From assembly GCA_016934315.1 (NCBI GenBank), contig JAFGSY010000027.1, forward strand, positions 1 to 64,000: a DNA stretch of 64,000 nt, read 5' to 3'. Position 1 is the first letter of the stretch. Every line of letters starts with the position of its first letter. The notes below the pieces were generated by a model. The model had not been told where the DNA came from. It did no database searches and saw only the letters and a program-made list of their open reading frames with translations. This DNA is from Candidatus Anaeroferrophillus wilburensis (GTDB lineage: Bacteria; Desulfobacterota; Anaeroferrophillalia; Anaeroferrophillales; Anaeroferrophillaceae). Of this stretch, positions 12,926 through 34,082 are shown in pieces. The position numbers and the translations under genes were made by a program.

Positions 12926-14389
12926 ATGAGAAAAAAAGTCATAACCGGATTAACGGTGCTGATCCTTTGTTTTGTTGCCGGTGGCGTCTATATAACCGGA
13001 TCGATCGATAAGGTTATGACCCGGCTGGAAAACATCAACACCCTGCATAAAGTGGAATTCCTGCGCAAGACCCTCCTGCAGGAGATCAATGTTGTGCAGA
13101 CGGATCTCCTGCTCAAAGATTCTCCCCATGCCCGCAATATCGATGTATTTGTCGGCAATGTTGAGCAGATGGTCAGCGGTGTCGACAGCTGTTTTGACTG
13201 CCATCATGATCCCCTGGTTTTGCAGCAAATTACCGAGGTGCGTGATGACATCAATGAGTATGCCAAAAAACTCAGCCGAGTCTATACCCTCAGGGCAAAC
13301 TTGCAGCGGCTTAACAGGGAAAAACAGAATGCCTTTGCCCAAGGGCAGAATGTCATCAGCAAGGTTGACCGGATCGTTGTCACCTCATCGGAAAAAGTAG
13401 CTTCCAGGGTTCTGCAGGCACGGAATAAAATTGAGGAGACCAAAAATCTGGTTACTGCCCTGCTGGTGATTGGTCCCCTGGCCATCGTCATGTTGGCGTT
13501 GATTTTTGTCCGTTTTGTCATCGATAGCGTTGGGACGCTTACGAGAGCTACCCGGAAACTGAAAGAGGGGAACCTGCATTATCGGATTGACAAAAGACTG
13601 CAGGATGAATTTCAGGAGCTGGCAGTAGCCTTTAACGATATGGCCACTTCCATCGAAGCCCAGTATCGGAACATGCAGCATACCGAACGCCTGGCGGCGG
13701 TGGGTGAGTTTGCCGCCGGTCTGGCCCACGAGGTGAAGAATCCCCTGGCTGGCATCAAAGTGTCCATTGAGGTTCTTGCTAATGATCTGCCGCTGGAACC
13801 GGATGACAAGGATATCTTTGCCAGGATTATCAACGAAGTGAACCGGATCGAAACGTTGCTTAAGAGTCTCCTGAACTATGCCCGCCCGCCGAAACCAAAG
13901 GCAACGGTTCTCAATCTCAATCAGCTGCTGGAAAAAACCATTGCTACTTCCCAATACACTCTCAAGAGCACTACCAGCGGTCCAGGGGCTGGTAAATATA
14001 TTAAATTTATTACCGAATTTGGTCGCGATATTCCAGATATTACTGCTGACCCCGGGCAGTTGCAGCAGATTTTTCTGAACTTGCTGTTGAATGCCATCGA
14101 TGCTATCCGTGACCAGGGAACAATTAGCATCAGTACTGTGTCCAAGGATGACGGGTATGTCCAGGTCATTATTGCCGATACCGGCCGGGGTATTGAGCCG
14201 GACGTCAGGAACAATATTTTCAACCCTTTTTTTACCACGAAACCTAAAGGCACCGGTTTGGGGCTGGCAATCTGCAAGCGCCTGATCGAACAGCAAGGCG
14301 GCAGTATCAAGGTTGACAGCGTGGTGGGGGAGGGGGCGGTTTTTACGCTGCTGCTGCCGTATGAGTTGATAAAAGAAGGTGAAAAATGA
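12926..14389 (+). CDS. Membrane sensor histidine kinase with a periplasmic c-type haem motif
   Basis: A 487-residue signalling kinase. TM1 spans about residues 6-24 and TM2 about 175-199. Between them is a helical periplasmic sensor of ~150 residues with a CXXCH motif at C89-F-D-C92-H93 (SCFDCHHD), which indicates covalent haem c. A HAMP segment follows (about 200-250), then HisKA with the phospho-acceptor H268 in GLAHEVKNPLAG, and an HATPase domain with N-box (NLLLNAIDAI), G1 (IADTGRGI), F-box and G2 (KGTGLGLAICK). It lies after a PhnD-like lipoprotein and overlaps the response regulator start (ATGA), so the three genes form one signalling unit. Haem could sense redox state or a gas; this is inference. 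Confidence 0.88.
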   Translation: MRKKVITGLTVLILCFVAGGVYITGSIDKVMTRLENINTLHKVEFLRKTLLQEINVVQTDLLLKDSPHARNIDVFVGNVEQMVSGVDSCFDCHHDPLVLQQITEVRDDINEYAKKLSRVYTLRANLQRLNREKQNAFAQGQNVISKVDRIVVTSSEKVASRVLQARNKIEETKNLVTALLVIGPLAIVMLALIFVRFVIDSVGTLTRATRKLKEGNLHYRIDKRLQDEFQELAVAFNDMATSIEAQYRNMQHTERLAAVGEFAAGLAHEVKNPLAGIKVSIEVLANDLPLEPDDKDIFARIINEVNRIETLLKSLLNYARPPKPKATVLNLNQLLEKTIATSQYTLKSTTSGPGAGKYIKFITEFGRDIPDITADPGQLQQIFLNLLLNAIDAIRDQGTISISTVSKDDGYVQVIIADTGRGIEPDVRNNIFNPFFTTKPKGTGLGLAICKRLIEQQGGSIKVDSVVGEGAVFTLLLPYELIKEGEK

Positions 14390-15783
14390 GCAAAGCCCAT
14401 GGCAGAATATTTCTCATTGATGACGAAGAATTGGTCGTTTCCATGCTGGCGAGGGTGTTGAAAAAGGAGGGCTATGAAACCAGGGTGCAGACGAGTGCCG
14501 AAGATGCGGTCAACAACATCGCTTCCTGGCATCCTGATCTGGTGCTGCTGGATATCCATCTTGATGAAGATGTGGATGGTATCCAGATCCTGCAGCAGAT
14601 AAAAACAGAGGAGATCGACACCCAGGTGGTGATGCTCACTGCCGATGACCGGGCGGAAACAGCCATCAAGGCAATGAAGCTCGGAGCTGTCGACTACCTT
14701 AACAAACCCTTCAACAGTGAAGAGGTGAAGATTGTCATCAAAGGCATTCTGGAAAAGGGGAAACTCAAGGATGAAGTCAGTTACCTGAGAAAAAGCAACG
14801 AAGCCAAAGCCACGCAGAAGATGGTCGGTGAATCACCGGTTATCAAAGATCTGATGTTCAAAGCCCAGCGCATTGCTGAAGCCGGTGCCCAGACTATCCT
14901 GATTACCGGTGAATCAGGAACCGGCAAGGAAGTCCTGGCCCGTTATATCCATGACTGTCGTAACGCACAGCAGGCGCCGGGGGGGCAGCAGGTTCCTTAT
15001 GTGACGGTCAACTGTACCGCTCTGCCGGATAATCTTATTGAAAGCGAGCTTTTCGGCCATTCAAAGTGGGCGTTTACCGATGCCAAGGCGGAAAAGAAGG
15101 GGATGTTTGAATTGGCTGACGGGGGGACCATCCTCCTGGACGAAATCGGCGATATGCGTCTTGAGCTCCAAAGCAAGTTTCTCCGGGTGCTGGAGGAGAG
15201 AAAAGTCAGGCGGCTGGGGGGGAAAACGGACCTTCCTGTTGATGTGACGGTGATTGCCACCACCAATAAGGATTTGAAGGCTGCCGTTGCCGCCAAGCAG
15301 TTTCGCGAAGATCTTTATTTTCGTCTGAGTACCTTTGCCATGCACCTGCCGCCGCTGCGGGAGCGGTCCCAGGATATTGCTCTCCTGGCCCGTTTTTTTC
15401 TGGCCCATTTTGCCCGTAAATATGACAAAAAAAAGGTTCAGGACATCTCTCCCGAGGCCGAGCAGATTTTGTGCTCCTATGGATGGCCGGGCAATATCCG
15501 GGAGTTGAGAAATGTCATTGAACGGTGTGTTGTGTTGGAAAGCGCGGAGCTCATTACTGCTGATCAGCTGCCGGCTGAGCTGGCGGGCGGCCAAGCCTCG
15601 GAGTCTTTCCAGATGGATAGGATTATTCTGCCGGCGGAGGGCTTATCGCTGGAGAAGGTGGAGCAGGAACTGCTGCGGCAGGCGTTAGAGAGGACGGGCT
15701 ACAATCAGACAAAAGCGGCAAAATTGCTGCAGATTTCCTATGATACCCTGCGTTATCAGGCAAAAAAATATGGTTTGCTTTAA
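14386..15783 (+). CDS. Sigma-54-dependent response regulator (NtrC family) with atypical GAFTGA loop
   Basis: A 465-residue regulator: receiver domain with phospho-acceptor D56 (LVLLDIHL), AAA+ domain with Walker A GESGTGKEVLARYIH and Walker B ADGGTILLDEIGDM, a C-terminal Fis-type helix-turn-helix (NQTKAAKLLQISYDTLRYQAK). The sigma-54-contacting GAFTGA loop is replaced by W228-A-F-T-D-A233, within SKWAFTDAKAEKKG. GAFTDA variants exist, but a bulky Trp at the first position is unusual. It is translationally coupled to the sensor kinase, its likely partner. Targets are unknown; a good -24/-12 site at 20058 is one candidate. Confidence 0.9.
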   Translation: MSKAHGRIFLIDDEELVVSMLARVLKKEGYETRVQTSAEDAVNNIASWHPDLVLLDIHLDEDVDGIQILQQIKTEEIDTQVVMLTADDRAETAIKAMKLGAVDYLNKPFNSEEVKIVIKGILEKGKLKDEVSYLRKSNEAKATQKMVGESPVIKDLMFKAQRIAEAGAQTILITGESGTGKEVLARYIHDCRNAQQAPGGQQVPYVTVNCTALPDNLIESELFGHSKWAFTDAKAEKKGMFELADGGTILLDEIGDMRLELQSKFLRVLEERKVRRLGGKTDLPVDVTVIATTNKDLKAAVAAKQFREDLYFRLSTFAMHLPPLRERSQDIALLARFFLAHFARKYDKKKVQDISPEAEQILCSYGWPGNIRELRNVIERCVVLESAELITADQLPAELAGGQASESFQMDRIILPAEGLSLEKVEQELLRQALERTGYNQTKAAKLLQISYDTLRYQAKKYGLL

Positions 15784-15811
15784 CAACGTGCCGGGAAAAT
15801 ATCCATGTTAG

Positions 15812-16519
15812 TTATGGGGAAAACCGGATTCCCGCCCGGCAGACCCCGGCATCAAATATGGTTTTCCAGACGACAACTCCGGTGCGGTCGGCAAAGGTAT
15901 TCTCAAAATTGACCGGCTGCCCCGGTTCCAGCGGATACAGGGTGGTAAGACCAATACCCCCCTCGCTCATATCGATTGACTGCGAGGTAAAGGTTGATCG
16001 ACGCTGTTTTCCCGCAAAATTGGTGTTCATCGACAAGTTTATTCGTCGGGCAAAGGGGCGGCGTGGTGTCTGGCGCCTGCTTTTAACGCCGTCATTGCCG
16101 ATGAAGCGGCAGCCTTGGGAAAAAAGGCAGGAATTCTGATCGAGTGCTTCGCAGATAAAGGTGGTAACTTCATTTAGTTTGAAGGGCTTGATGATAAAGT
16201 GACAGGCTCCGCCAAGGATCGCCTGGCGGATATTGCTACTCAGATTCGAGCCATTGATATAGCTGGCGGTCATGATAACGGTCAGAGTCTCGGGATAGAG
16301 AAGCTTAATGGCCTTCATGAGTTCCAGTCCATTGAAATCCGGCAAATGGATATCCAGGATGCACATGTCGAAGGAGCGTTCGGCCATGACCTCCAGGGCT
16401 TGGGCGGCTGTCTCTGCAGTGACCACCTGGTAGGGATGATGACGTAATGCTTTTTTGAGGCCGAAAAGAATAAGTTGCTCATCGTCAACTATGAGAAGAC
16501 TTCTCTCTTGTCCCGCCAT
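15812..16519 (-). CDS. Response regulator with receiver and PilZ domains
   Basis: A 235-residue protein starting at the ATG preceded by GGGGAAGG (a GTG two codons earlier is too close to it). The receiver domain spans about residues 5-125 (LLIVDDEQLILFGLKKAL, phospho-acceptor in MCILDIHLPDFNGLELM, KPF motif). A PilZ domain follows (about 145-235) with the c-di-GMP-binding signature: the basic cluster SRRQTPRRPFARR and the DMSEGGIGL turn. It would join phosphorelay input with c-di-GMP binding. No effector domain such as HTH is present, so it may act by protein contact. It is convergent with the sigma-54 regulator and lies downstream of the spermidine-synthase-like gene. Confidence 0.82.
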   Translation of the reverse strand: MAGQERSLLIVDDEQLILFGLKKALRHHPYQVVTAETAAQALEVMAERSFDMCILDIHLPDFNGLELMKAIKLLYPETLTVIMTASYINGSNLSSNIRQAILGGACHFIIKPFKLNEVTTFICEALDQNSCLFSQGCRFIGNDGVKSRRQTPRRPFARRINLSMNTNFAGKQRRSTFTSQSIDMSEGGIGLTTLYPLEPGQPVNFENTFADRTGVVVWKTIFDAGVCRAGIRFSP

Positions 16520-16628
16520 AGCCACACCTTCCCCTTCCTTCTTCGTTAAGCTCCAAGATATACTGTTGTCATCACCAGACTGGGAAATAAGACGGCAGCA
16601 CTGTTTCCATTTATCTGGTGATTGGCTG

Positions 16629-19655: not shown

Positions 19656-20057
19656 TTTACATACCTCGAGGCTGGTGGTTTGCTGTTTTATCCTTAATTG
19701 AAAACATGGTAGCAATTTTTGAGCCGTTTTTTTGTTTTTGCCATGCGGTGAACCGGTTTTTCCCGCCAACTCCTTGCCCGCCGCCCGGTTTTTCAGTCCG
19801 CCAACTGTCCTCATTCCTTGTGTTTCCCTTGTTTCAGTAAATCTCCTGATTCGTTTGTGCCGTATCCTGTCTGTCCGTGCTCTTGGGGCTGTTCAGGCCT
19901 GGAAGGCATTAGCTATTGTTAATCGCAGTAAAAAGGTTGGTTATTTCACCAAGTCCATTTGGGAAAATAACCAACCTTTTTACTATGAAAATGATTGGCG
20001 GAACATCTCGTAACTGTAACTCATTGAAAAATTAGAGCTAAATTGATTTTAAGCGAG
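19656..20057. other. Divergent intergenic region without a gene
   Basis: This gap separates the minus-strand synthase-like gene from the plus-strand NHL gene. It holds a large perfect hairpin (19927-19984) and, at its right end, a sigma-54-type promoter. I see no convincing short gene in it. Confidence 0.6.
19927..19984. repeat. Perfect 20-bp inverted repeat with 18-nt loop
   Basis: The left arm AGTAAAAAGGTTGGTTATTT (19927-19946) is exactly complementary to the right arm at 19965-19984. The 18-nt loop itself contains CCAA and TTGG, which can extend the stem. It may be a terminator for an unseen small RNA, a bidirectional terminator, or a small mobile repeat. Confidence 0.7.
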
Positions 20058-20074
20058 TTGGCACAGAGGTTGCT
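20058..20074 (+). promoter_or_regulatory. Candidate sigma-54 (-24/-12) promoter before the NHL/OmcS-like cluster
   Basis: TTGGCACAGAGGTTGCT matches the sigma-54 consensus with the invariant GG (20060-61) and GC (20072-73) separated by 10 nt. Transcription would begin near 20085, so the ATG at 20088 would be almost leaderless, which agrees with the absence of a Shine-Dalgarno there. Confidence 0.5.
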
Positions 20075-20087
20075 CTCTCTCATTGGT

Positions 20088-21080
20088 ATGAAGACACAAC
20101 GCACACATAGCAGCACTGCCATCATCACCGCCATCATGATCAGCATGTTTGTGGCGGCAACTGCCTTTGGGATGGAGATTCAATTCCAATACCGGTTGGC
20201 CAATTTTGATGGCATCGTGTCGTCCCTCTGGGCCCGGTTGGCCCTTGATAAGGAAACAACAGAGTTGTATGCCCTGGACCGGCATGAGCGGGAGGTGCGG
20301 ATTTTCAACGAAGCCGCCATGGAGGTTTTTGCTATCGGTGAGGATGTGGAGCTGGCCGGGGCAGATGATATCGCCCTTGGTGAGGAAGGCACGCTCTATG
20401 TTGTCTACGGTAATTCCCCCGAACATACCGTGCTGAAACTCAACTACAAAGGTGAAGAGGTTGGCCACCTGAGACTTTCCGGGGTGCCGGAAGAATTAAT
20501 GCCGTTCCATCCCGATCATGTTGAGTATCTGGATAACCGCCTGTACTTGGCAGACTCCAACGACCTGTCAATCATCATAGTTGAAGCAGATGGTCGCTTT
20601 CTTAAAGGCTATCGTTTGCCGGCTCTCTTGCAGCAGAATGCTGAAAAGCTTGCTCTTAATGTTGAAGATGGCCAGTTGAAAGACGATCGGCAGATTCCCG
20701 CCTCCTTCGGCGGCTTCTGTGTCGACCAGCAGGGTGCCATGTATTTCACCGTGCCGGCCATGTTTGCCGCCTTTAGGCTGAGTGCTGACGGTGAATTGCA
20801 GGGTTTTGGTCAACCGGGCAGCGCCGCCGGCAAGTTCGGCGTCGTCGGCGGCATCGGTACCGATGGTGCGGGCAACCTTTATATTGCTGATCGCCTGCGG
20901 TGCGTTGTCCTGATCTTTGACCGCAATTTCACCTTTCTGAAGGAGTTTGGCTACCGGGGCTCCCGGCCCGGCAGCCTGATTGTTCCCGATGATGTGGTTG
21001 TCGACGATGCCAGGGGAACGGTCTATGTTTCCCAGGCGGCCAATCGAGGGGTCAGCGTCTACAAGCTGATCTTCAACTGA
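20088..21080 (+). CDS. Secreted NHL-repeat beta-propeller protein
   Basis: A 330-residue exported protein. An N-terminal signal segment (MKTQRTHSSTAIITAIMISM...ATAFG) precedes a six-bladed propeller with NHL-type repeats, such as GTDGAGNLYIADRLRCVVLIFDR, FLKEFGYRGSRPGSLIVPDDV and DDARGTVYVSQAANRGVSVY. Start 20088 is chosen for the signal peptide; a TTG at 20043 is possible, and no clear SD is present. It lies directly upstream of the OmcS-like cytochrome, as NHL proteins do near some Geobacter cytochromes (recollection). It may help secretion, haem loading or polymer assembly, but no catalytic motif shows this. Confidence 0.78.
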   Translation: MKTQRTHSSTAIITAIMISMFVAATAFGMEIQFQYRLANFDGIVSSLWARLALDKETTELYALDRHEREVRIFNEAAMEVFAIGEDVELAGADDIALGEEGTLYVVYGNSPEHTVLKLNYKGEEVGHLRLSGVPEELMPFHPDHVEYLDNRLYLADSNDLSIIIVEADGRFLKGYRLPALLQQNAEKLALNVEDGQLKDDRQIPASFGGFCVDQQGAMYFTVPAMFAAFRLSADGELQGFGQPGSAAGKFGVVGGIGTDGAGNLYIADRLRCVVLIFDRNFTFLKEFGYRGSRPGSLIVPDDVVVDDARGTVYVSQAANRGVSVYKLIFN

Positions 21081-21090
21081 AATCCAGCAG

Positions 21091-21118
21091 TTGAAACAGG
21101 AATAACCTGATGCATAAT
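21091..21118 (+). promoter_or_regulatory. Possible promoter for the riboswitch-cytochrome transcript
   Basis: TTGAAA (21091-21096) and CATAAT (21113-21118) are separated by 16 bp, about 120 nt before the riboswitch aptamer. It is weak in both boxes; the transcript may instead come from the promoter upstream of the NHL gene. Confidence 0.3.
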
Positions 21119-21237
21119 CAACAGTGTCAACAGGGTCTCGCACATGATGAAAGGAGGTATGGAAAAAGGGAGTGGAGAGGCCTGCAGCAAGCAAGAAGGG
21201 AAAAAGGCCGGAGTACCTGATTGATTCCGGCGCAACG

Positions 21238-21331
21238 ATCCTCCGCTAAAGGTAAACCCATTGTAAGGTGGGGACACAAAGCCGCAGGTCCCGAAGGGAT
21301 GGCTGGGCTGCCGGGGAAAAGCAAGGAGGAT
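21238..21331 (+). promoter_or_regulatory. GEMM-I riboswitch (cyclic dinucleotide sensor) controlling the OmcS-like cytochrome
   Basis: The leader shows the GEMM-I core: GGTAAACC, a P2 stem capped by a GTAA (GNRA) tetraloop, then GGGGACACAAAGCC, a P3 stem GCC...TCCC-gaa-GGGA-t-GGC, and TGGGCTGCCG. The 5' strand ATCCTCCGCT (21238-21247) can pair with AGC-aa-GGAGGAT (21320-21331), which contains the Shine-Dalgarno of the cytochrome gene at 21337. Closing this helix would hide the SD. In my alignment the base equivalent to Vc2 position 20 is G, favouring c-di-GMP over cGAMP, but the alignment is by eye. Confidence 0.85.
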
Positions 21332-21336
21332 GAATC

Positions 21337-22503
21337 ATGAAGAAATTAACGTGTGCAATTGCCTGTATGGCCCTGCTGATGTTGGGATTTACCGGTACCG
21401 GATTTGCCTTCCACGGCGGCGGCGTGGCCCACTGCGATGGTTGTCATACCATGCATAACTCGGCTGACAACCCGGCTGAGGGGGCGGCAAATTCCATGCT
21501 CTTGACCGGCTCCGACGCCAGCTCCACCTGTCTGAACTGTCATGCCGGCGGTGGCGGCTACCATGTTATGAGCACCGACGGTTCCAATACCAATGCCGGC
21601 GGTGACTTTTACTGGGTAAACAATGCCTATACGCTGACAGTCCGGGGAACAGTTAACACCTACGCCGGCGATAATGCCGGTCACAACATGGTCGCGGCTG
21701 ACTACGGCATGACTGCCGATGCCCGGGCCGATAATCTCCAGGCGCCCGGCGGCACCTATGCTGCCAATCTGCTGGGCTGCACCAGCTGCCACGATGCCCA
21801 CGGCCAGGTCAACGGCGGGACCAGCAACGGTACGGCGCCGATTTCGGCCTCCGGTTCCTACGGGGCTGCCGAACCGACGGATGGCTCCATTCTCGGCAAC
21901 TACCGTCTGCTTGGTGACAGTCAGTACACGGCCGGCAATACCGATGCCGATGGTTTTGCCTTCAACGCCGATGCCCCGATTGCCCGGGCCAGCGGTTCCA
22001 ACGGCGCCTCGGTTGACTACGGTTCCAATATGTCCGAATGGTGTGCCAACTGCCATGGCGATTTCCTGGTGGGTGGATCCGCCGCCCATAAGCATCCGGC
22101 CGGCAATGATGTGCATCTGAACGGCTATGGCACCAACTATAACTCCTACGTTGCCACCGGTGATTTCACCGGCCTGCAGGCAACCTCTTATGATGCTCTG
22201 GTGCCCTTCGAACGCGGCGTTGTCACTGGTACTTGGGATCTGGATCCCACCAGCACGGCCGGTCCGGACAACAATTCCAATGTCTCATGTCTGACTTGCC
22301 ACCGCGCCCATTCGTCGGCATTCAACAACATGGGCCGCTGGGACTTCGAGGTCGAGATGCTGGCTGAATCCCATGTGTTGGAATCTGCTGATGTACCCGC
22401 CACCGCGGTACCGTACTATGCCGATGGCGCGGCGATCGATATCGTGACCAAGTATGGTGAGTATCAGCGTTCACTGTGTAACAAATGTCACGTGCAGGAT
22501 TAA
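21337..22503 (+). CDS. omcS: OmcS-like hexahaem c-type cytochrome, probable extracellular nanowire subunit
   Basis: A 388-residue secreted cytochrome. The signal peptide ends GFA|FHGGG near residue 24. Six CXXCH sites: C33, C65, C148, C236, C318 and C381. The sequence follows Geobacter OmcS as I remember it: mature N-terminus FHGGGVAHCDGCHTMHNS (OmcS FHSGGVAECEGCHTMHNS), AGHNMVA, SEWCANCH, HPAGND, SNVSCLTCHRAH and C-terminal YQRSLCNKCHVQD. Candidate distal haem ligands are also kept (H26, H40, H76, H116, H155, H253, H325). OmcS polymerises into haem-lined filaments that carry electrons outside the cell. The gene has its own GEMM-I riboswitch and a good SD (AAGGAGG). It is shorter than OmcS (about 407 mature residues), mainly in loops. 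Confidence 0.9.
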   Translation: MKKLTCAIACMALLMLGFTGTGFAFHGGGVAHCDGCHTMHNSADNPAEGAANSMLLTGSDASSTCLNCHAGGGGYHVMSTDGSNTNAGGDFYWVNNAYTLTVRGTVNTYAGDNAGHNMVAADYGMTADARADNLQAPGGTYAANLLGCTSCHDAHGQVNGGTSNGTAPISASGSYGAAEPTDGSILGNYRLLGDSQYTAGNTDADGFAFNADAPIARASGSNGASVDYGSNMSEWCANCHGDFLVGGSAAHKHPAGNDVHLNGYGTNYNSYVATGDFTGLQATSYDALVPFERGVVTGTWDLDPTSTAGPDNNSNVSCLTCHRAHSSAFNNMGRWDFEVEMLAESHVLESADVPATAVPYYADGAAIDIVTKYGEYQRSLCNKCHVQD

Positions 22504-23005: not shown

Positions 23006-24475
23006 GTGGGATGTGAACGTCGGCGGCGGCAGGAGAACATCAGGCGCACGGGATCGGTACTGCAGTTTCTTGCGGCGCTTAGGCTGCTGTTGATTCTGTT
23101 CTTGCTTTTTTCAGTTGGTTGCAGTCTTGAGGCGATCGTTGAGGATGCTCCGACCCTGGGGACGAAAGGAAGGGTTTTCGTCTATCTGCAGCCGCTGCCA
23201 CAGGAAAGCCGTTCATTGACGTTTGTCCTCGAGCAGCTGGCAGCGGTTAGTGAAGATGGTTCTTTGAAACCCCTCGAATCATCCTCTCTGGAGATTAAAG
23301 GTGATGCTTTCAGCGGCCGCCAGAAGCTGCTGACGGCGGCAATCCTGCCTTCCGGCAGCTATCAGGGACTTTCCCTGGTGATTGCCGCGGCCACGATAAG
23401 CGGTGAGGAAGGGGAGACAAACCTGCTGGTTCCCGAGCAGCCACTGTTGATATCACAGAAATTCCACCTCCTGCCCGGCAATGACCAGGCGCTTTTTCTC
23501 ACCCTGTTGCCGGAAAACCTGGTTGCCCAGGGCTACCGCTTTTCCCCTTCCTTTTCCCTTGGCGTTCCCCGTCGGCTGACCCGCAATTTCACCGGCTTTG
23601 CCTCCCAGACTGCGACCCATACGGTAACGGTTTTCAATAAGCGGACGATGGAGGTGTTTTGTCTTCTGAGCCCGGGGACCACCCCCCGGGGTATGGCCCT
23701 CGATGATCGCAGCGGGCGGCTGTATGTTGCCCTGGCCGGTGATGACGCGGTGGCGGTGATCGATGTCGATACCCTGGAAGAGGTGGGGCGGGTCGGGCTC
23801 TTTTTTGGTGATCGTCCGGTGGAACTGGCATTGGCGGTGAACGGTGATACCCTGGTTGCCGCCAACCAGGGGTCCCGGACCCTGAGCATTATCGATACCG
23901 CCTCTCTCTATGAAAGACACAGGGTGCAGCTCAACAGCGAGCCGGCCTGGGTGGTGGCCGACAGATCCGGCCGGCAGGTCTACGTTCTTCAGGCCATGGA
24001 TAACTCGGTGGCGATTATTGATCTGGCCAGCGGTGTGCAGCTCACCACCATTGTTCTCGATGAAGTGCCGGAACATGGTGCTTTGAGCCGGGACGGCAAT
24101 CAGCTGTATGTTGTCGGCCGGCGGTCAGGCGATCTGCTGGTGGTTGATCTGCAGCAGCTCGCAGTGGTGGATAAAATTTTTGTCGGTGGTGGTTCCTCAG
24201 CCATCACGGCTGATTCGCGCACCAACCTGGTGTATATCGGCAAGCAGTCGGGTGAGGTGGTTCTGGTTGATGCGGCGGCGCAGATGGTTCTTGACTCATG
24301 TATGGTACCCGGCGATGTGAGACATCTGGCCATTGATGGTGAAGAAAACAGTCTTTTTATCCTGTCGGCTGGTGAGCGCCTCATCCACAAGGTGGATCTG
24401 GTCGGCAAACAGGGCCTGGGCAGGGTGGAAACGGCAGAGGGGGGATATTCCCTGGTGATCATGGGTGCGCGGTAG
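23006..24475 (+). CDS. YVTN-type beta-propeller lipoprotein
   Basis: A 489-residue lipoprotein. The GTG start follows AGGAGG; a long basic n-region precedes the lipobox LFSVGC (about residue 38). The first ~150 residues form a beta-rich domain similar in layout to DUF4382 (GRVFVYLQPLP...ILPSGSYQGLSLVI). A propeller of YVTN-like repeats follows: GMALDDRSGRLYVALAGDDA, VDLASG-type turns, GDTLVAANQGSRTLSIIDT, SGRQVYVLQAMDNSVAIIDL, TNLVYIGKQSGEVVLVD. It is the first gene of a compact run (5 bp before the barrel gene) and is likely an outer-membrane or surface partner of the electron-transfer proteins. No enzyme motif is seen. Confidence 0.78.
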   Translation: MGCERRRRQENIRRTGSVLQFLAALRLLLILFLLFSVGCSLEAIVEDAPTLGTKGRVFVYLQPLPQESRSLTFVLEQLAAVSEDGSLKPLESSSLEIKGDAFSGRQKLLTAAILPSGSYQGLSLVIAAATISGEEGETNLLVPEQPLLISQKFHLLPGNDQALFLTLLPENLVAQGYRFSPSFSLGVPRRLTRNFTGFASQTATHTVTVFNKRTMEVFCLLSPGTTPRGMALDDRSGRLYVALAGDDAVAVIDVDTLEEVGRVGLFFGDRPVELALAVNGDTLVAANQGSRTLSIIDTASLYERHRVQLNSEPAWVVADRSGRQVYVLQAMDNSVAIIDLASGVQLTTIVLDEVPEHGALSRDGNQLYVVGRRSGDLLVVDLQQLAVVDKIFVGGGSSAITADSRTNLVYIGKQSGEVVLVDAAAQMVLDSCMVPGDVRHLAIDGEENSLFILSAGERLIHKVDLVGKQGLGRVETAEGGYSLVIMGAR

Positions 24476-24480
24476 AACTT

Positions 24481-26652
24481 ATGGAAAAGCAGCTGCCCCT
24501 CATGCTGACGATAATGGTTTTGGTCACCGTCCTGGTTCTGGTGACCGCGGTTGGCAGCCTGCATGCGGAAGGCATCAGCCTGTTGACCGATCTGGAGTAT
24601 TTCAATACCAATGATACCATAACCGACAAGGAGAGCGGCAGCAAAACCGATAACCAGTTTACCCGTTTTACCCAGGTATACAACGTGGCCATGGCAAAAC
24701 AGCTTTTCCCCAACCTTTCTTTCAGTGCCGGCAGTTTTTTCGAGTTCGACAAGTTGAACAATGATGCCGACGGCACGGAGACGGAGTTTCGGGAACGAAC
24801 CATGCGGCCTTTTATGGAGGTGAATCTGGCCAACCCGCTTTACCGCGCCGGGTTTGTCTACCGGCGGACGGAAAAGAAAGAGAATCCCAGTGCCATGCCC
24901 ACCACCAGAACGTTCATGGATGACTACAGCGGCAACTTCAACTGGCGGCCGGTGGCCTTGCCATCACTCAATATCAATTATCGCCGGAGTCTGGTTCATG
25001 ATCAGCCGAAAACCGTCGACCAGACGAATGAAACCTTAAGTCTGCTCAGCAAGTATGTCTATAAAGGGGTGGAGTTTGACTATACCTACAACCGCCGGCA
25101 GGAAAAGGAGCAGCTCAGCGATGCCGGTTCACTGACCCAGATTCACAACGGCGGCATTTTCACTTCCCGGAATTTTTATGATAATCGTCTCAGACTCAGC
25201 GCTGGTTCAAGGGTTGATTACACGGAAACGGTCTTTTCCGGTGCGGGGGAAAGCCGGGTCAGGACGGCATTCCCAGGCAGTGCTTTTTACCTCCTTGATG
25301 ATTCCACCCCTGTCAGCAACCTGGCTGGAGAGTTTACCGATGTCGGCGGCGCGGCACCGCTCAGCACGGTGAATATCGGCAGAAACGGCGGTTTCAACCC
25401 GGTGAGCGCCGGCCTTGATTTCAGTGTGAGAACGGAGGTTGATGCGGTCTATATCCTGCTGGAAAAAGATGACCAAAACCCGAACCTGGCGATTCCGAGC
25501 CAGATAGCCGGAATTGCCGCTTCCTTCACCTGGTCGCTTTATGCCAGTGATGATCGGGAAAACTGGACGGCACACGGTATTGCCACCGTCACCTATAACA
25601 GCTTCTACCACCGGTTTGAGATTGTCTTTGCCTCTCCGATAGATGCTCAGTATCTCAAAATTGTTGTCTTGCCGCAGGTGTTTGCCCCGGGAGAAATTCG
25701 CTTAGCGGATATTCAAGCCTTTACCACGGTTGCGGGCGGTTCCCGGGTGACGATTGAAAACCTGAACCAGTTTTATACGTTTGGCGCCGAATGGCGGCCG
25801 ACAACCAGCACCAGCGCCGGCTATAATGTCAACTATCGCCACCGTGAGACAAAGCCGGATGGTGAGGTCAGGACTTCCCTGGTCAATGGTGTCAATGTCC
25901 GTCACCAGTTCAATCCGGTCTTTTCCACCACTGCCCGGCTGTTGCGCAGCGATGCCACCCAGACGGGAGAGAGTGACCTGGTCAGTTATACCTACAGCAC
26001 CGCCCTGCGGGCCGATTTTTTTGATACCTTGAGGCAGTCACTGATCTACAGCGGCACCAGAAGCGATGAAGATGAGGGCAGCAGTACCACCAACGCTGTC
26101 GTTCTCCGTACCAGTGCCGATCTCTATGAAGGCTGGAGCATGAATCTTGATCTTGGCTACGCCTGGAACAGTCTTCAGGAGAGCGGTGACCAGACCAGCA
26201 AGTTTCTGCGTCTTGATACCGTGGTGGTTCCCCATAATAAACTGCATCTTGACTTTTCCTATGAAGTTTATTGGAATACCCAGGAGGATGAAGAGGACAG
26301 CACCCGTCAGAAAGGCAGCATCCATAGCTTGCTGGTCGTAACGGATACTATCAACATGACGGCGGATTATAATTTTACCGACCGTCAGGGGCCGGATAAT
26401 GACTCCACTTTTTTGCAGGATTATGCCTTAAACTGGGCACCGTTCAGGGATGGTACCCTGCAGTTCTCGCTGTCCTATACCGAGTCGATCAGCTCGGAGA
26501 ACAACGAGGAAAAATTCCTCTCACCGAGCATCAAGTGGCAGGTTGCCAAGGGGATGCTCATGGAACTGCGCTATAATACCGGTACCATAGAAACTGCCAG
26601 AGAAAAACTGGATACGGATAATGTTTACTGTAACCTGAGACTGTTTTATTGA
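24481..26652 (+). CDS. Outer-membrane beta-barrel protein with an inserted discoidin-like domain
   Basis: A 723-residue exported protein. The signal peptide ends GSLHA (about residue 29). Most of the chain is alternating amphipathic strands with Tyr/Phe/Arg ends, e.g. TAGFNVNYRHRETKPDG-like and LHLDFSYEVYWNT-like strands, and it ends in an aromatic strand (NVYCNLRLFY), as barrel proteins do. About residues 300-420 resemble an F5/8 type C (discoidin) domain: WSLYASDDRENWT, FEIVFASPIDAQYLKIVV, GEIRLADIQAF. Placed between a propeller lipoprotein and multihaem cytochromes, it is a candidate porin sheath for electron or protein passage; this role is inferred from context. Confidence 0.75.
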   Translation: MEKQLPLMLTIMVLVTVLVLVTAVGSLHAEGISLLTDLEYFNTNDTITDKESGSKTDNQFTRFTQVYNVAMAKQLFPNLSFSAGSFFEFDKLNNDADGTETEFRERTMRPFMEVNLANPLYRAGFVYRRTEKKENPSAMPTTRTFMDDYSGNFNWRPVALPSLNINYRRSLVHDQPKTVDQTNETLSLLSKYVYKGVEFDYTYNRRQEKEQLSDAGSLTQIHNGGIFTSRNFYDNRLRLSAGSRVDYTETVFSGAGESRVRTAFPGSAFYLLDDSTPVSNLAGEFTDVGGAAPLSTVNIGRNGGFNPVSAGLDFSVRTEVDAVYILLEKDDQNPNLAIPSQIAGIAASFTWSLYASDDRENWTAHGIATVTYNSFYHRFEIVFASPIDAQYLKIVVLPQVFAPGEIRLADIQAFTTVAGGSRVTIENLNQFYTFGAEWRPTTSTSAGYNVNYRHRETKPDGEVRTSLVNGVNVRHQFNPVFSTTARLLRSDATQTGESDLVSYTYSTALRADFFDTLRQSLIYSGTRSDEDEGSSTTNAVVLRTSADLYEGWSMNLDLGYAWNSLQESGDQTSKFLRLDTVVVPHNKLHLDFSYEVYWNTQEDEEDSTRQKGSIHSLLVVTDTINMTADYNFTDRQGPDNDSTFLQDYALNWAPFRDGTLQFSLSYTESISSENNEEKFLSPSIKWQVAKGMLMELRYNTGTIETAREKLDTDNVYCNLRLFY

Positions 26653-28761: not shown

Positions 28762-28938
28762 CGCAGGTGATTAGCGGCGGACACCTCGGAACCGCCCATG
28801 GACGGCCGGCGAGAATGAGCGAGAGCCATGCCGGAACATCCGGAGAAATTTCTTTCAGCTGTTTGTAGGGCAGCTCAGAACGTTGCGCCAATAGTAAAAG
28901 TAACGGTGATGGTTAAGGAAGGAATGACAGGTGATCTG

Positions 28939-30723
28939 ATGAAATCAGTGAAAAACGCAGTGCTGGCATGGGGTAGTGTCCTGGTGATCATGTTGTCGGT
29001 GGCTCCGGCATTCAGCCAAGCTCCCCGGGGGGAGATGGCCGGCGCCGCGGTGGTGGAAGGCGGCCAGCATATTTCGCTTGAAAGGCTGCTGGCGCTTCGT
29101 ATACCTCTTTTTTCCCCTCATTTTGCCGAGACCCCGGTTGCCCTGGTCAACGATGAACCGATCAAGATGTGGGAACTGGCGCGGGCACTTGTCTCCCGTG
29201 ACAGCGATGCCGGAGCCGGGGAGGGTGAGGCAATCCTTCAGGATCTTCTTGGACGGCTGATCAATATCCGGCTTATTGTCCAGGAGGCGAGAAATATCGG
29301 TTTGGACGAAGCGGAGAGCATGCAGGCTCTGTTTGCCGATTTTACCAAAAAAAGTCTGCTGCAGGAGCTGATTGACAACCAGATGAAGGACCTTGCTCCC
29401 GATCCTGACGAGGTGGAAGACCTTTACCGGCAGATGTCCCGCGAGGTGCAGATTCATACCCTGATTTTCAAACGAGCCGAAGACGCTGCTGAATTGCTCG
29501 AGGAGAGTGCCAAAGGAGTTGCTTTTGAACAGCTTGCGAGCACATATATTGCTGACGGCAAGGCAACCGACGAGCATAATGACGCGTTCATGAAGATCAG
29601 TGACCTGCTGCCCCAGGTAGGGGAGGCCGCCTACACGATGAAACCCGGTGAGGTCAGCAAACTGTTTCGTGCCCCGAAGGGCTTTGTCCTTTTTCAGCTT
29701 CGTGATGTTCGTTTTGTGGCCGACCCACAGGTGCAGGAGAAAGCCAGACAAATTGTCTATGAGCGCCTCAAGAAGAAGCGGGCCAGAGAATACAGTGATG
29801 AACTGATCGAAAAGCATGCAGTCATCGATGAAGAACTTTTTGAACAGCTCGATTTTGAGCAGGATGTTTCGGATTCCGTCAAAGAAGGAGAGAAAAAACC
29901 GGCTGATTTTGGCAAATTGCTGCAGGATCAGCGTGTCCTGGCCACCATCCGTGGCGGGGAACCGGGCACCATTACCGTGGCGGACCTGGCCAGGGAGTTG
30001 AAAGGGCAGTTTTTTCATGGTGTTGACAAAGCCGTCAAGTCGGGAAATATCAACAGTAGAAAAATTATTATTTTTTCCAACATGCTTTTCAAAATAACCG
30101 GCGACCTGGAAGCCAGGCTGCTGAAACTTGATCAGGAGCCCCGCTTTCGTTACACTTTACATGAATTTGAGCAGTCAACCCTTTTCGGTGCTTTTGTAGA
30201 CAAGGTGGTGGCGCCGGAGGTGAAGCTTGTCGAGGCTGAGGTAAGGCAGGTCTATGACGATCATCTGGATGAATACTCTTCCCCGGTGATGCTGCGGATC
30301 AAAAGCCTTGTTTTTGCCAAAAAGAAGGATGCCGACCATGCGTTTGATCGTCTTCACAAGGGGGCGGATTTCAGGTGGGTTTCGGGCAATGCCGTCGGCC
30401 TGGTTGACAAAAGCTCGCCGGGGGTCCTTGATTTTGAAAGCCAGCTGTTAACGTTGTCCACTCTGCCAGAAGGCCTGCGACAGCTGGTTAAGGAGCCCCG
30501 CCAGGGGGATTCTTTCATCTATGCCGCTCCCGGCGGCGACCTCCACTATGTGCTGTTTCTGGAGCAGGTATTTCCTCCCCAGGTGCAGCCTTTTGACAAG
30601 GTGAAAGCTCCCATCGCCAGGAAGCTTTATAATGAAAAAATCAAGCTGGCGGTTGATGAGTGGCTTGCCAAGCTGAAAGATGCGTATGAAACCCGGATTT
30701 TCATAACTGCCGTTGATGAGTAA
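28939..30723 (+). CDS. Periplasmic SurA/PpiC-type peptidyl-prolyl isomerase with two parvulin-like domains
   Basis: An exported chaperone of 594 residues. The start at MKSVKNAVLAWG is chosen for its signal peptide (cleavage near AFSQA) and the AGGTGAT upstream; earlier in-frame starts extend a non-signal sequence. It has a helical SurA-like N-domain (VALVNDEPIKMWELARALV, INIRLIVQEARNIGLDE), a first PpiC-like domain (about 195-300, VQIHTLIFK, AYTMKPGEVSKLFRAPKGFVLFQL), a helical linker, and a second PpiC-like domain (about 450-560, MLRIKSLVFAKKKDADHAF). Its place before two huge cytochromes suggests folding or assembly of the electron-transfer proteins. Confidence 0.8.
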   Translation: MKSVKNAVLAWGSVLVIMLSVAPAFSQAPRGEMAGAAVVEGGQHISLERLLALRIPLFSPHFAETPVALVNDEPIKMWELARALVSRDSDAGAGEGEAILQDLLGRLINIRLIVQEARNIGLDEAESMQALFADFTKKSLLQELIDNQMKDLAPDPDEVEDLYRQMSREVQIHTLIFKRAEDAAELLEESAKGVAFEQLASTYIADGKATDEHNDAFMKISDLLPQVGEAAYTMKPGEVSKLFRAPKGFVLFQLRDVRFVADPQVQEKARQIVYERLKKKRAREYSDELIEKHAVIDEELFEQLDFEQDVSDSVKEGEKKPADFGKLLQDQRVLATIRGGEPGTITVADLARELKGQFFHGVDKAVKSGNINSRKIIIFSNMLFKITGDLEARLLKLDQEPRFRYTLHEFEQSTLFGAFVDKVVAPEVKLVEAEVRQVYDDHLDEYSSPVMLRIKSLVFAKKKDADHAFDRLHKGADFRWVSGNAVGLVDKSSPGVLDFESQLLTLSTLPEGLRQLVKEPRQGDSFIYAAPGGDLHYVLFLEQVFPPQVQPFDKVKAPIARKLYNEKIKLAVDEWLAKLKDAYETRIFITAVDE

Positions 30724-30778: not shown

Positions 30779-30813
30779 TGTAATTGACAACCATCAGGAT
30801 ACATGGCGCAATT

Positions 30814-32796
30814 ATGAAGCATATTCGAGGAACGGACAGATGCAGGATGTTGGTGGCCGCCATTCTCTGTTGTGGCGTGTTGTTTCTGGCCTTGGCTCCT
30901 TCAGCCGCTGCCAAGAAAAGGACGTTTAAGAAAAAGGAGTGTATCGACTGCCATGACACGTTTGCCAAGCAGTACCTGTCGAAGAAAAATGTTCATGCCG
31001 TGGTCCGGGAACAGCAGTGTGATGACTGCCATCTGCGCCACGGGATAGTGCCGAAACTGCTGCTGAAGGAGGAAGGCAACGAACTCTGCTACCGTTGCCA
31101 CAAAATTGAGGCTCTCCAGCTGGATCAAAAGGTGGTGCATACCGCCTTGCGGCGGGGAAAGTGTGTCTCCTGCCATGACCCCCACGCCTCCGATTCACCG
31201 GCACTCCTGTCAGCGGTTGGCAATGACATCTGTTTCCAATGCCATCAGCAGGACTCCTTTTCGGGCAAGGTTGTTCATGGTGTGGTTGAGAAGGAAGGCT
31301 GCCGGGCCTGTCATGATGCCCATGGTTCGGCTGAAAAAAACCTGCTGGTCAAACCGCCGGCTGAGCTTTGCATCTCCTGCCATGAACCGAAAACCGAGGA
31401 TTTCCGGCATGCTCATGGTGGCTACCCCGTGGCAACCGGCTCGTGTACCGTTTGTCATTCCCCCCATGCGTCTGATCAGGGAAAGCTGTTGAAAGCCAGT
31501 GTTCATGAGCCGGTGACTGCCGGTGAGTGTGATGCCTGTCACCAATCTCCAACGTCAGCAGATCCTTTTGCCACTACCGCCGATGCCCGGGAACTCTGCC
31601 TCACCTGTCACGAACGAAGCGATTTGATGGGTGACGGCACGGTTTCGCATGCTCCCTTTGCCGACGGCGATTGCCTTTCCTGTCATGATCCTCATACGGC
31701 TGCCAACCCTACGCTGCTTATTGCTCAAGGCAATCAGCTGTGTTTTTCATGCCACGAAAATACCGGGGTGAAAGTCCTGCATCCCCATGCTCCCATTGAG
31801 GGTGAGCGGGGCTGTCTTGCCTGCCATGCCCCCCATGCCGGCCGGCACAACGGTCTCCTGGACCTGGCCGGCGGCGATCTTTGTTTCAGCTGCCATGAAC
31901 AGATCAAGGACCGTGGCAAGGGGTTGCAGCATCAACATGAACCGTTTGTCGACCAGGAGTGCAGCGCCTGTCACAATTCCCATGGTTCCAATGCGGCCAA
32001 CATGCTTAATAATCGTACCGATGCCGTCTGCTATTCCTGCCATGTCGAACTGGAAAGCGAGTTCCAGCTCAGTGCCACCCATGAGCCGGTCAGGAAAGGC
32101 AACTGTACCGTCTGTCACCGTGGACACGCTTCTGATTATGGCAAGCTTCTTACCACTGATGGGTCGAAGCTGTGTGCCCAGTGCCACGAAGCTATGATGG
32201 GCAGGGAGAACGCTGAAAGTCTGCACCCACCCTTCGAAGAGGCTGCCTGCCAGGACTGCCATGCCCCTCATGCCAGCAATTTCCCGGGCATGATCAGTGA
32301 AGACCAGTATTCGTTGTGTCTCGGCTGCCACGGGCAGATCAGCGATGAGCTTCAGACAGCGAAAAGTGCCCATGAACCGGTGCGCGCCGGCACCTGCACC
32401 GGCTGCCACAGTCCCCACAAGGCGAGCCTTGATGTGCTGATGCTGGCTCCCAGCCCTGATCTGTGCCTTACCTGTCATCAGGATATCAAGGCGCAGATGG
32501 AAACCCAGAGGGCCCATTCGCCAGCTGCCAGGGACTGTCTCCGCTGTCATCAGCCCCATGCGGCTGCTGAACCGGCTCTGCTGAACAATCCCCAGCAGGT
32601 TTTGTGCGCCGAATGTCATGAAGCTGATGCCGAAACTTTCAAGCGGGCCCATCTCCGAATTGAGGCGTCAGCCATGGACTGCATGAACTGTCATGCCCCC
32701 CATGCTTCAAAAGATCCGAAATTTTTCAAATCAAACGTGCATGCTCCCTTTGCGTCAAAGTCATGTGATGCCTGCCATATCGCAGAAAAAGAGTAA
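30814..32796 (+). CDS. 26-haem c-type cytochrome (doubled CXXCH repeats)
   Basis: An exported cytochrome of 660 residues from the ATG at 30814 (MKHIRGTD), with a signal peptide ending SAAAK. I count 26 CXXCH motifs, about one per 25 residues, arranged as repeated pairs in which CxxCHxPHAS-type sites alternate with LCxxCH sites; the His in PHAS/AHGS and in VHEPV-type turns can be distal ligands. There is no lipobox and no other domain. It is separated from the 16-haem gene by 11 bp. Such proteins form long haem wires; together with the barrel upstream it may carry electrons across the envelope. Confidence 0.92.
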   Translation: MKHIRGTDRCRMLVAAILCCGVLFLALAPSAAAKKRTFKKKECIDCHDTFAKQYLSKKNVHAVVREQQCDDCHLRHGIVPKLLLKEEGNELCYRCHKIEALQLDQKVVHTALRRGKCVSCHDPHASDSPALLSAVGNDICFQCHQQDSFSGKVVHGVVEKEGCRACHDAHGSAEKNLLVKPPAELCISCHEPKTEDFRHAHGGYPVATGSCTVCHSPHASDQGKLLKASVHEPVTAGECDACHQSPTSADPFATTADARELCLTCHERSDLMGDGTVSHAPFADGDCLSCHDPHTAANPTLLIAQGNQLCFSCHENTGVKVLHPHAPIEGERGCLACHAPHAGRHNGLLDLAGGDLCFSCHEQIKDRGKGLQHQHEPFVDQECSACHNSHGSNAANMLNNRTDAVCYSCHVELESEFQLSATHEPVRKGNCTVCHRGHASDYGKLLTTDGSKLCAQCHEAMMGRENAESLHPPFEEAACQDCHAPHASNFPGMISEDQYSLCLGCHGQISDELQTAKSAHEPVRAGTCTGCHSPHKASLDVLMLAPSPDLCLTCHQDIKAQMETQRAHSPAARDCLRCHQPHAAAEPALLNNPQQVLCAECHEADAETFKRAHLRIEASAMDCMNCHAPHASKDPKFFKSNVHAPFASKSCDACHIAEKE

Positions 32797-32807
32797 CGGA
32801 GGACAGA

Positions 32808-34082
32808 GTGAAAGTACGCTATCTCTTTCTTATGATGACTGTTCTGGTGCTGCCGCTTCTTCTGGTTCCGGCTGTCGTGGATGCCAAGGATAGCATGAAA
32901 CTTAAAAGCGGCGCCAAGGGCAAGCTGTGCCTGGAATGTCATGAGGGTTTCAGGGAGAAACTGAAGAAATCTCATGTCCATACCCCCTTGGCGGAAGGTG
33001 AGTGCACCGGCTGTCACAACCCCCACACCTCCTCGCATGAGCTGCTCATGGCGGCCGAACCGAAGGATATCTGCTACCAATGCCATGAGCGCATGGTTCC
33101 TGAAGGGGCGGCCAGTGCTCACCAAGTGGTGGTTGATGGCCAATGTACTACCTGCCATGACCCCCATGCAGCCGATAACCGGATGAACCTCATCCGGTCG
33201 GGAAGTGAACTCTGCTATGGCTGCCATGAAGAACTGGGGCGCAAGGTTAGTGACAGCAAGTTCCAGCATTCGCCGGTCAAAAAAGACTGCCTGAAATGCC
33301 ACAACCCCCATGCTTCCAGCGAGCATCCTGCTTTGTTGGTGAAAAGCGTGCCGGAGCTGTGCAAAACCTGTCACCAGACGGATAAGACGACTTTCAAAAA
33401 CCTGCATGCAAATTATCCCGTGGACCAGGCCGACTGTACCTCTTGTCATGATACCCATGGTTCCAGCCAGGCTGCCATGCTTTATGATAATGTCCACCAG
33501 CCGGTCAGCAAGGGAATGTGCAAGCAATGCCATGCCGCTCCTGATGCTGCCGAACCGCTGAAGTTGAAACAGGCCGGTTATGAGTCCTGCCAGGGGTGCC
33601 ACTACGACATGGTGACCGATACCCTCAACCTGAAGCGGATTCACTGGCCGGTGGTCGATGGCAAAGGATGTCTGAACTGCCATACCCCCCACGCGTCAGC
33701 GACCGGCAGCCTGCTGCTGAAGCCTCAGAAAGCCTTGTGCGCCGGCTGCCATACCGATACCATGGCCCGACAGGAGCGCTCATCAACCAAGCATCCGCCA
33801 ATTGACGAGGGCAACTGTACCGCCTGCCATGCCCCCCATGGTTCCAATAACCAGTTTATCATGACCCGGGCGTCGGTGATGGATGTCTGCGGCGACTGCC
33901 ATGATTGGCAGACCCATTCATCCCATCCCATCGGGGAAAAAGTTGTTGATCCCCGCAACAAAAACAGTACTGTCCAATGCTTAAGCTGTCACCGCTCTCA
34001 CGGAACCGAACACAAACATTTTCTCTATTTCGCGACAACCAATGAACTGTGTATCCAGTGTCATGCAGGGTATCGGAGATAA
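32808..34082 (+). CDS. 16-haem c-type cytochrome (doubled CXXCH repeats)
   Basis: An exported cytochrome of 424 residues. The GTG start follows GGAGG. The signal peptide ends VVDAKD (about residue 26). There are 16 CXXCH motifs, with the same paired pattern as the upstream 26-haem protein (CTGCHNPHTSS, CTTCHDPHAAD, CTACHAPHGSN), so the two probably arose by duplication and differ in repeat number. Together they could hold 42 haems. It lies 4 bp before the second NHL gene, so these genes are cotranscribed. Confidence 0.92.
   Translation: MKVRYLFLMMTVLVLPLLLVPAVVDAKDSMKLKSGAKGKLCLECHEGFREKLKKSHVHTPLAEGECTGCHNPHTSSHELLMAAEPKDICYQCHERMVPEGAASAHQVVVDGQCTTCHDPHAADNRMNLIRSGSELCYGCHEELGRKVSDSKFQHSPVKKDCLKCHNPHASSEHPALLVKSVPELCKTCHQTDKTTFKNLHANYPVDQADCTSCHDTHGSSQAAMLYDNVHQPVSKGMCKQCHAAPDAAEPLKLKQAGYESCQGCHYDMVTDTLNLKRIHWPVVDGKGCLNCHTPHASATGSLLLKPQKALCAGCHTDTMARQERSSTKHPPIDEGNCTACHAPHGSNNQFIMTRASVMDVCGDCHDWQTHSSHPIGEKVVDPRNKNSTVQCLSCHRSHGTEHKHFLYFATTNELCIQCHAGYRR

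Follow-up and report, generated by a model that had tools for sequence, protein, structure and literature searches.

A GEMM-I aptamer with a predicted Shine-Dalgarno strand exchange upstream of an OmcS-like cytochrome gene in Candidatus Anaeroferrophillus wilburensis

The omcS-like gene and its cluster

The window analyzed here is a 64,000 nucleotide stretch of DNA from Candidatus Anaeroferrophillus wilburensis (contig JAFGSY010000027.1, positions 1 to 64,000). The following genes were recognized at the locus by homology, domain searches and motif counts:

20043–21080, forward strand: six-bladed beta-propeller (NHL-like) gene, upstream; the ORF is listed from a TTG, and its actual start may lie further downstream
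21337–22503, forward strand: omcS-like gene, 388 aa, six CxxCH motifs, signal peptide-like N-terminus (homology, motif count)
23006–24475, forward strand: beta-propeller protein of the OetI-type cluster (domain search)
24481–26652, forward strand: 723-aa candidate outer-membrane barrel in the OetI position, no Pfam match (inferred from position and size)
28828–30723, forward strand: peptidyl-prolyl isomerase (PPIase) of the OetI-type cluster (domain search)
30784–32796, forward strand: 26-heme cytochrome (26 CxxCH)
32808–34082, forward strand: 16-heme cytochrome (16 CxxCH)

The product of the omcS-like gene matches OmcS (PDB 6ef8/6nef) over residues 25–388 with an E-value of 8.5e-65, and the nanowire gene claimed in the original prediction is borne out by homology as one of the OmcS type with six CxxCH hemes. 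The label “nanowire” is used here for a filament predicted from this homology. A beta-propeller, a PPIase and the 16-heme and 26-heme cytochromes are found together and, judged by this gene content, the omcS-like gene heads an OetI-type extracellular-electron-transfer cluster. The cluster core was described in PMC5539420 and named OetI-type in PMC10553843, and an OmcS-like gene belongs to the shared gene set as well; neither a riboswitch nor c-di-GMP is mentioned in the main text of these papers. The upstream beta-propeller neighbor recurs in a related locus (L025).

The aptamer and two alternative pairings of one strand

Located 20 nt upstream of the OmcS-like hexaheme cytochrome gene is a GEMM-I (c-di-GMP-I) aptamer (21241–21316, forward strand). 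The Infernal comparison with RF01051, a check proposed along with the original prediction, gave 60.5 bits at 21241–21315 (cut-off 35). RF03167 (c-di-GMP-I-GGC) matched 21242–21316 with 61.8 bits and an E-value of 3.5e-12 (cut-off 59). The GEMM-I core blocks, all of which had been claimed for this leader, can be read directly: J1/2 with AAAGGT, a GUAA (GNRA) loop on P2, ACACAAAGCC and GCTGCCGG. The leader contains the following elements:

21091–21118, forward strand: promoter-like TTGAAA-16-CATAAT, 10/12 matches (consensus match only; shuffles average 0.2)
21207–21231, forward strand: predicted 8-bp hairpin immediately 5′ of the anti-SD strand
21238–21244, forward strand: anti-Shine-Dalgarno (anti-SD) strand ATCCTCC, common to P1 (complementarity, comparative data)
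21241–21245, forward strand: P1 5′ strand CTCCG, partner of 21312–21316 in the ligand-competent fold (Rfam alignment, covariation)
21251, 21278 and 21311, forward strand: ligand-contact bases G20, A47 and C92 of the aptamer (covariance-model alignment, Vc2 numbering)
21312–21316, forward strand: P1 3′ strand CGGGG (CGGAG in most relatives), itself SD-like (Rfam alignment, covariation)
21325–21331, forward strand: GGAGGAT, i.e., the Shine-Dalgarno (SD) sequence GGAGG (21325–21329) plus flank, masked by 21238–21244 in the ligand-free fold (folding, comparative data)

According to the model alignment, all ligand-contact bases of the c-di-GMP-I class (G20, A47, C92) are present. Although RF03167 gave the top score, it was rejected as the class of this aptamer, since its distinguishing G at position 47 (consensus GACGCGAA) is an A here (GACACAAA); in our own reading of the model, the “GGC” of its name would denote positions 20, 47 and 92, thus G-G-C as against G-A-C in our sequence. 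Based on these binding-site bases, the aptamer is assigned to the ordinary c-di-GMP-I class. Two further GEMM-I copies were found by Rfam in the same genome (G000), on contigs C40 and C10. The platform of the C10 copy (L002, 237–312) seems to be an intrinsic terminator that overlaps with the 3′ end of the aptamer, and that of the C40 copy (L001, 1501–1596) a separate downstream CAGCA/TGCTG anti-SD hairpin.

Transcription from the promoter-like site would yield a leader about 210 nt long. For about half of the relatives, folding predicts a hairpin comparable to that at 21207–21231 but differing in sequence. No terminator was found between the aptamer and the ATG start codon, and a transcription-terminator platform was rejected for this reason. 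About 80 nt upstream of the anti-SD strand, a perfect SD-like sequence occurs (AAAGGAGGT, 21150–21158), which could act for a leader peptide or as a competing partner of the anti-SD strand; AAAGGAGGTGATG-like sequences are seen upstream of OmcS in L013, L014, L018, L019, L241 and L249.

ATCCTCC (21238–21244) and GGAGGAT (21325–21331) form a perfect 7-bp helix, to which three pairs can be added across an AA bulge (GCT 21245–21247 with AGC 21320–21322). Thus, the pairing of AGC-aa-GGAGGAT over the SD, which was originally noticed in the sequence, holds: its 7-bp helix has a predicted probability of 1.00 and is kept in relatives. However, this helix is not the closing helix of the aptamer, as had been claimed. 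P1 consists of C21244-G21313 and G21245-C21312 in the Rfam alignment and can be extended to CTCCG/CGGGG; hence, bases 21241–21244 are used by both helices. Since P1 needs the same 5′ bases, the SD helix and the ligand-competent fold are mutually exclusive, and by its pairing partners the SD helix is to be regarded as a competitor of P1, neither its extension nor the closing helix of the aptamer.

Conservation of both helices in related leaders

OmcS relatives were drawn from three sources, namely named MAGs, 395 genomes belonging to the phylum and 277 genomes belonging to the class of G368, and their aptamers were detected via Rfam. The sample comprises 24 usable leaders, which collapse to 21 distinct rows and belong to genes for OmcS-type or related multiheme cytochromes. 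Pairs were counted on joined segments, since a whole-leader MAFFT alignment misplaced the SD region due to variable spacers. XTCCTCC/GGAGGAX′ and CTCYG/CRGRG are kept in nearly all of the 24 leaders; L017 is without SD pairing. The SD helix shows 98.0% standard pairs in the distinct rows and a covariation score of 0.192 compared to 0.103 in shuffles, none of 500 being as high, while slid registers reached 0.035–0.079. P1 has 98.1% standard pairs, and C-G is replaced by U-A through changes in both strands: CTCCG/CGGAG becomes CTCTG/CAGAG in L025, L154 and L129, a change which the SD pairing accommodates as U-G. The outermost pair of the SD helix is formed in 19 of 21 rows (A-U 12, C-G 4, U-A 1, G-U 2, unpaired 2), with a shuffle mean of 11.9 and 0/20,000 shuffles reaching 19; three of the C-G rows come from one family and the fourth, L247, from another. 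In the two columns further outward, pairing was not above chance in the 21 rows when compared to shuffles, so the conserved SD helix is taken to be 7 bp long. ATCCTCC and GGAGGA owe much of their conservation to bases without any variation, and some changes on both sides stem from genomes related to one another.

The layout, defined as a helix of at least six pairs from the region of the P1 5′ strand to the SD, was found in 14 of 16 OmcS-type leaders versus 2 of the 89 further GEMM-I leaders read in the phylum, the latter being an approximate rate since the 89 came from higher-scoring GEMM-I matches. Fisher's test gives p = 1.5e-13 but treats leaders as independent, which those of related genomes are not. 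The 16 leaders had been chosen by protein homology and Rfam regardless of layout, with L129, L143 and the L154 site left out. Inspected by eye, many of the other 89 leaders have T-runs resembling those of terminators, or a separate anti-SD located downstream.

A pattern scan of the 395 genomes for TCCTCYG plus the aptamer core returned few true cases, its 3′ core being too strict (GSCCRG misses GGCTGG), but added L129, L143 and the L154 site. In L154 (genome G170) and L129 (G317), the same strand-exchange riboswitch precedes multiheme cytochromes with a non-OmcS-like start (4 and 6 CxxCH, respectively), which may be other filament cytochromes. Several deviating leaders were also seen. In L037 (820–905, genome G169), the GEMM-I aptamer upstream of OmcS has C at the specificity position 20, A47 and C92 being kept. 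In L245 (1382–1465) and L246 (2682–2766), the GEMM-I aptamer before OmcS has ...CTGTTCGG replacing ...CTGCCGG, apparently with U at position 92, and the fifth P1 pair is lost. Many OmcS genes have no aptamer at all; upstream of five of these (L008, L235, L236, L237, L239), sigma-54-like sites were observed (e.g., TGGCACGggtcTTGC in L008 and TGGCACGccgaTTGC in L237), a resemblance which suggests another mode of control.

Direction of switching, ligand and proposed mechanism

The SD helix is present in the minimum-energy fold of the leader, whose folding energy is ordinary compared to shuffles (z = −0.23). Since this stability is unremarkable, the case rests on the covariance-model match and the comparative data. 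When P1 was enforced in silico, mean SD openness in the window rose from 0.00 in the free RNA to 0.85, at a cost of 6.4 kcal/mol (1.8–9.6 kcal/mol in other SD-paired leaders); in relatives, openness with P1 enforced is often just 0.2–0.7. For Vc2, P1 is required for ligand binding (PMC9262584), and because P1 takes the 5′ strand of the SD helix, a ligand should open the SD, i.e., act as an ON signal. The cost exceeds the 4.3 kcal/mol which a 1 nM binder at 1 µM ligand repays at equilibrium; therefore, tighter binding or kinetic control would be needed. In simulated partial transcripts, P1 is possible from 21316 on and the SD helix replaces it as soon as 21330 has been transcribed, so that ligand capture during transcription would be expected between 21316 and about 21330.

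These folding results bear on the opposite direction, namely that the ligand stabilizes the SD-masking helix and turns translation off, as originally proposed. Here, the ligand-bound aptamer and the SD helix would stack as one long closing helix, as reported for Vc2, a translational OFF switch according to PMC9262584. Such a nested fold is feasible on paper, with CCG/CGG and AUCCU/AGGAU pairing around a bulge, and with P1 enforced it is favored (0.64–0.72) in 3 of 24 leaders, L245, L246 and one L016 copy, in which the modeled switching direction is less clear. In the window, however, its probability with P1 enforced is 0.05, and the conserved 5-bp P1 and 7-bp SD helix cannot both be complete due to their four-base overlap. 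Further, loss of the cGAMP synthase in Geobacter lowers all genes with a GEMM-Ib switch including omcST, which fits an ON switch (PMC6456294). The OFF direction was rejected for the window and appears quite improbable to us; the folding models indicate that the original mechanism is probably backwards and that the ligand releases the SD in a translational ON switch. An aptamer which no longer switches, with the SD helix merely tuning basal translation in a decayed or constitutive leader, would agree with the loss of SD pairing in leaders such as L017 and with the many aptamer-less OmcS genes. Nevertheless, the aptamer scores above the curated cut-off with its ligand contacts intact, and both alternative helices are kept with co-variation, which leaves this explanation very little probability. 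Overall, the original observation is confirmed and its interpretation partly supported.

Concerning the ligand, position 20 is G (21251) rather than A, as originally read, so the A20 expected of cGAMP-selective GEMM-Ib aptamers is absent. An A20G change converts a cGAMP aptamer to a c-di-GMP aptamer (PMC6456294), position 20 being a selectivity factor but no strict filter (PMC9262584). Hypr enzymes carry Ser/Thr where canonical GGDEFs carry Asp. The genome, which is 98% complete, has 13 GGDEF matches, i.e., 12 complete domains plus one weak domain (L093) outside the count; none of the 12 has the Hypr Ser/Thr and all 12 have the canonical Asp. cGAMP signaling was rejected on the basis of this missing signature among the complete domains of the genome. 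Since position 20 is G and no Hypr GGDEF was found among these 12, c-di-GMP is most likely the ligand, as far as sequence features can indicate. A response regulator encoded at 15812–16525 includes PilZ, a domain known for binding c-di-GMP. This regulator is the divergent member of a group near the cluster (12926–16525) which also includes a histidine kinase with a CxxCH motif and a sigma-54 response regulator; a tie of these regulators to c-di-GMP is possible.

An ON switch answering to 3′,3′-cGAMP, or to both ligands as does the omcST riboswitch of G. sulfurreducens (PMC6456294), must be considered as well; this published dual response keeps dual sensing conceivable, and A20 occurs in both copies of L016 and, by eye, in L241 and L247. 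On the other hand, G20 and the absence of the Hypr Ser/Thr from the 12 complete GGDEF domains speak against it in our genome, and we regard it as unlikely. The locus L016 of genome G411 contains two OmcS genes, both with an A20 (cGAMP-type) aptamer of their own (892–968 and 2869–2946); no Hypr Ser/Thr was seen among the readable GGDEF domains of this genome.

Returning to the c-di-GMP-responsive ON switch, the computed observations are the aptamer, both helices with their shared strand and co-variation, and the absence of a terminator and of a Hypr signature. We consider it probable that a c-di-GMP-I riboswitch controls translation of the OmcS-type nanowire cytochrome by strand exchange; ligand identity, direction and filament formation by the gene product are what we infer. 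In the proposed mechanism, strand 21238–21245 (ATCCTCCG) would have two partners that exclude each other. In the ligand-free state, ATCCTCC would bind GGAGGAT and bury the SD; with ligand, the aptamer would fold around P1 (CTCCG with CGGGG), taking the same strand away and opening the SD. Rising c-di-GMP would thus raise nanowire production.

Compared to known systems, the leader shares with Vc2-type c-di-GMP-I riboswitches (RF01051) the aptamer fold, G20/A47/C92, the P1-P2-P3 junction and translational control, but Vc2 reportedly masks a distant site, whereas here the P1 5′ strand itself is the anti-SD and ON switching is predicted. With the Geobacter GEMM-Ib (cGAMP) riboswitches including that of omcST, it shares the OmcS target family, the aptamer family and the ON direction; it differs by G20 instead of the A20 which sets cGAMP selectivity in Gmet_0970 (PMC6456294), in that no Hypr enzyme was found, and by a translational platform instead of a terminator, the last comparison covering leaders other than that of G. 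sulfurreducens omcST. While a GEMM-I riboswitch on omcST in Geobacter has already been published (PMC6456294), a term-based literature search, incomplete for subscription papers, found no paper on P1-strand/SD exchange in GEMM-I or on riboswitch control of OetI-type clusters. The addition to the published switch is thus the conserved strand-exchange platform together with the ON direction.

The case also warns against taking any SD-masking helix beside an aptamer for its closing helix. Filaments of the OmcS type conduct electrons to minerals and electrodes and, as has been proposed, from methane-oxidizing archaea to sulfate reducers; c-di-GMP is the attachment signal. The base-by-base prediction of one strand with two partners connects c-di-GMP to nanowire translation and is testable with few point changes. 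Beyond this locus, we lean slightly towards a distinct GEMM-I subtype for extracellular multiheme (nanowire-type) cytochromes of Desulfobacterota-like bacteria, in which the P1 strand serves as anti-SD of a translational ON switch and c-di-GMP, or another dinucleotide where base 20 has changed, would set nanowire production in the OetI-type clusters found in sulfate reducers and related bacteria.
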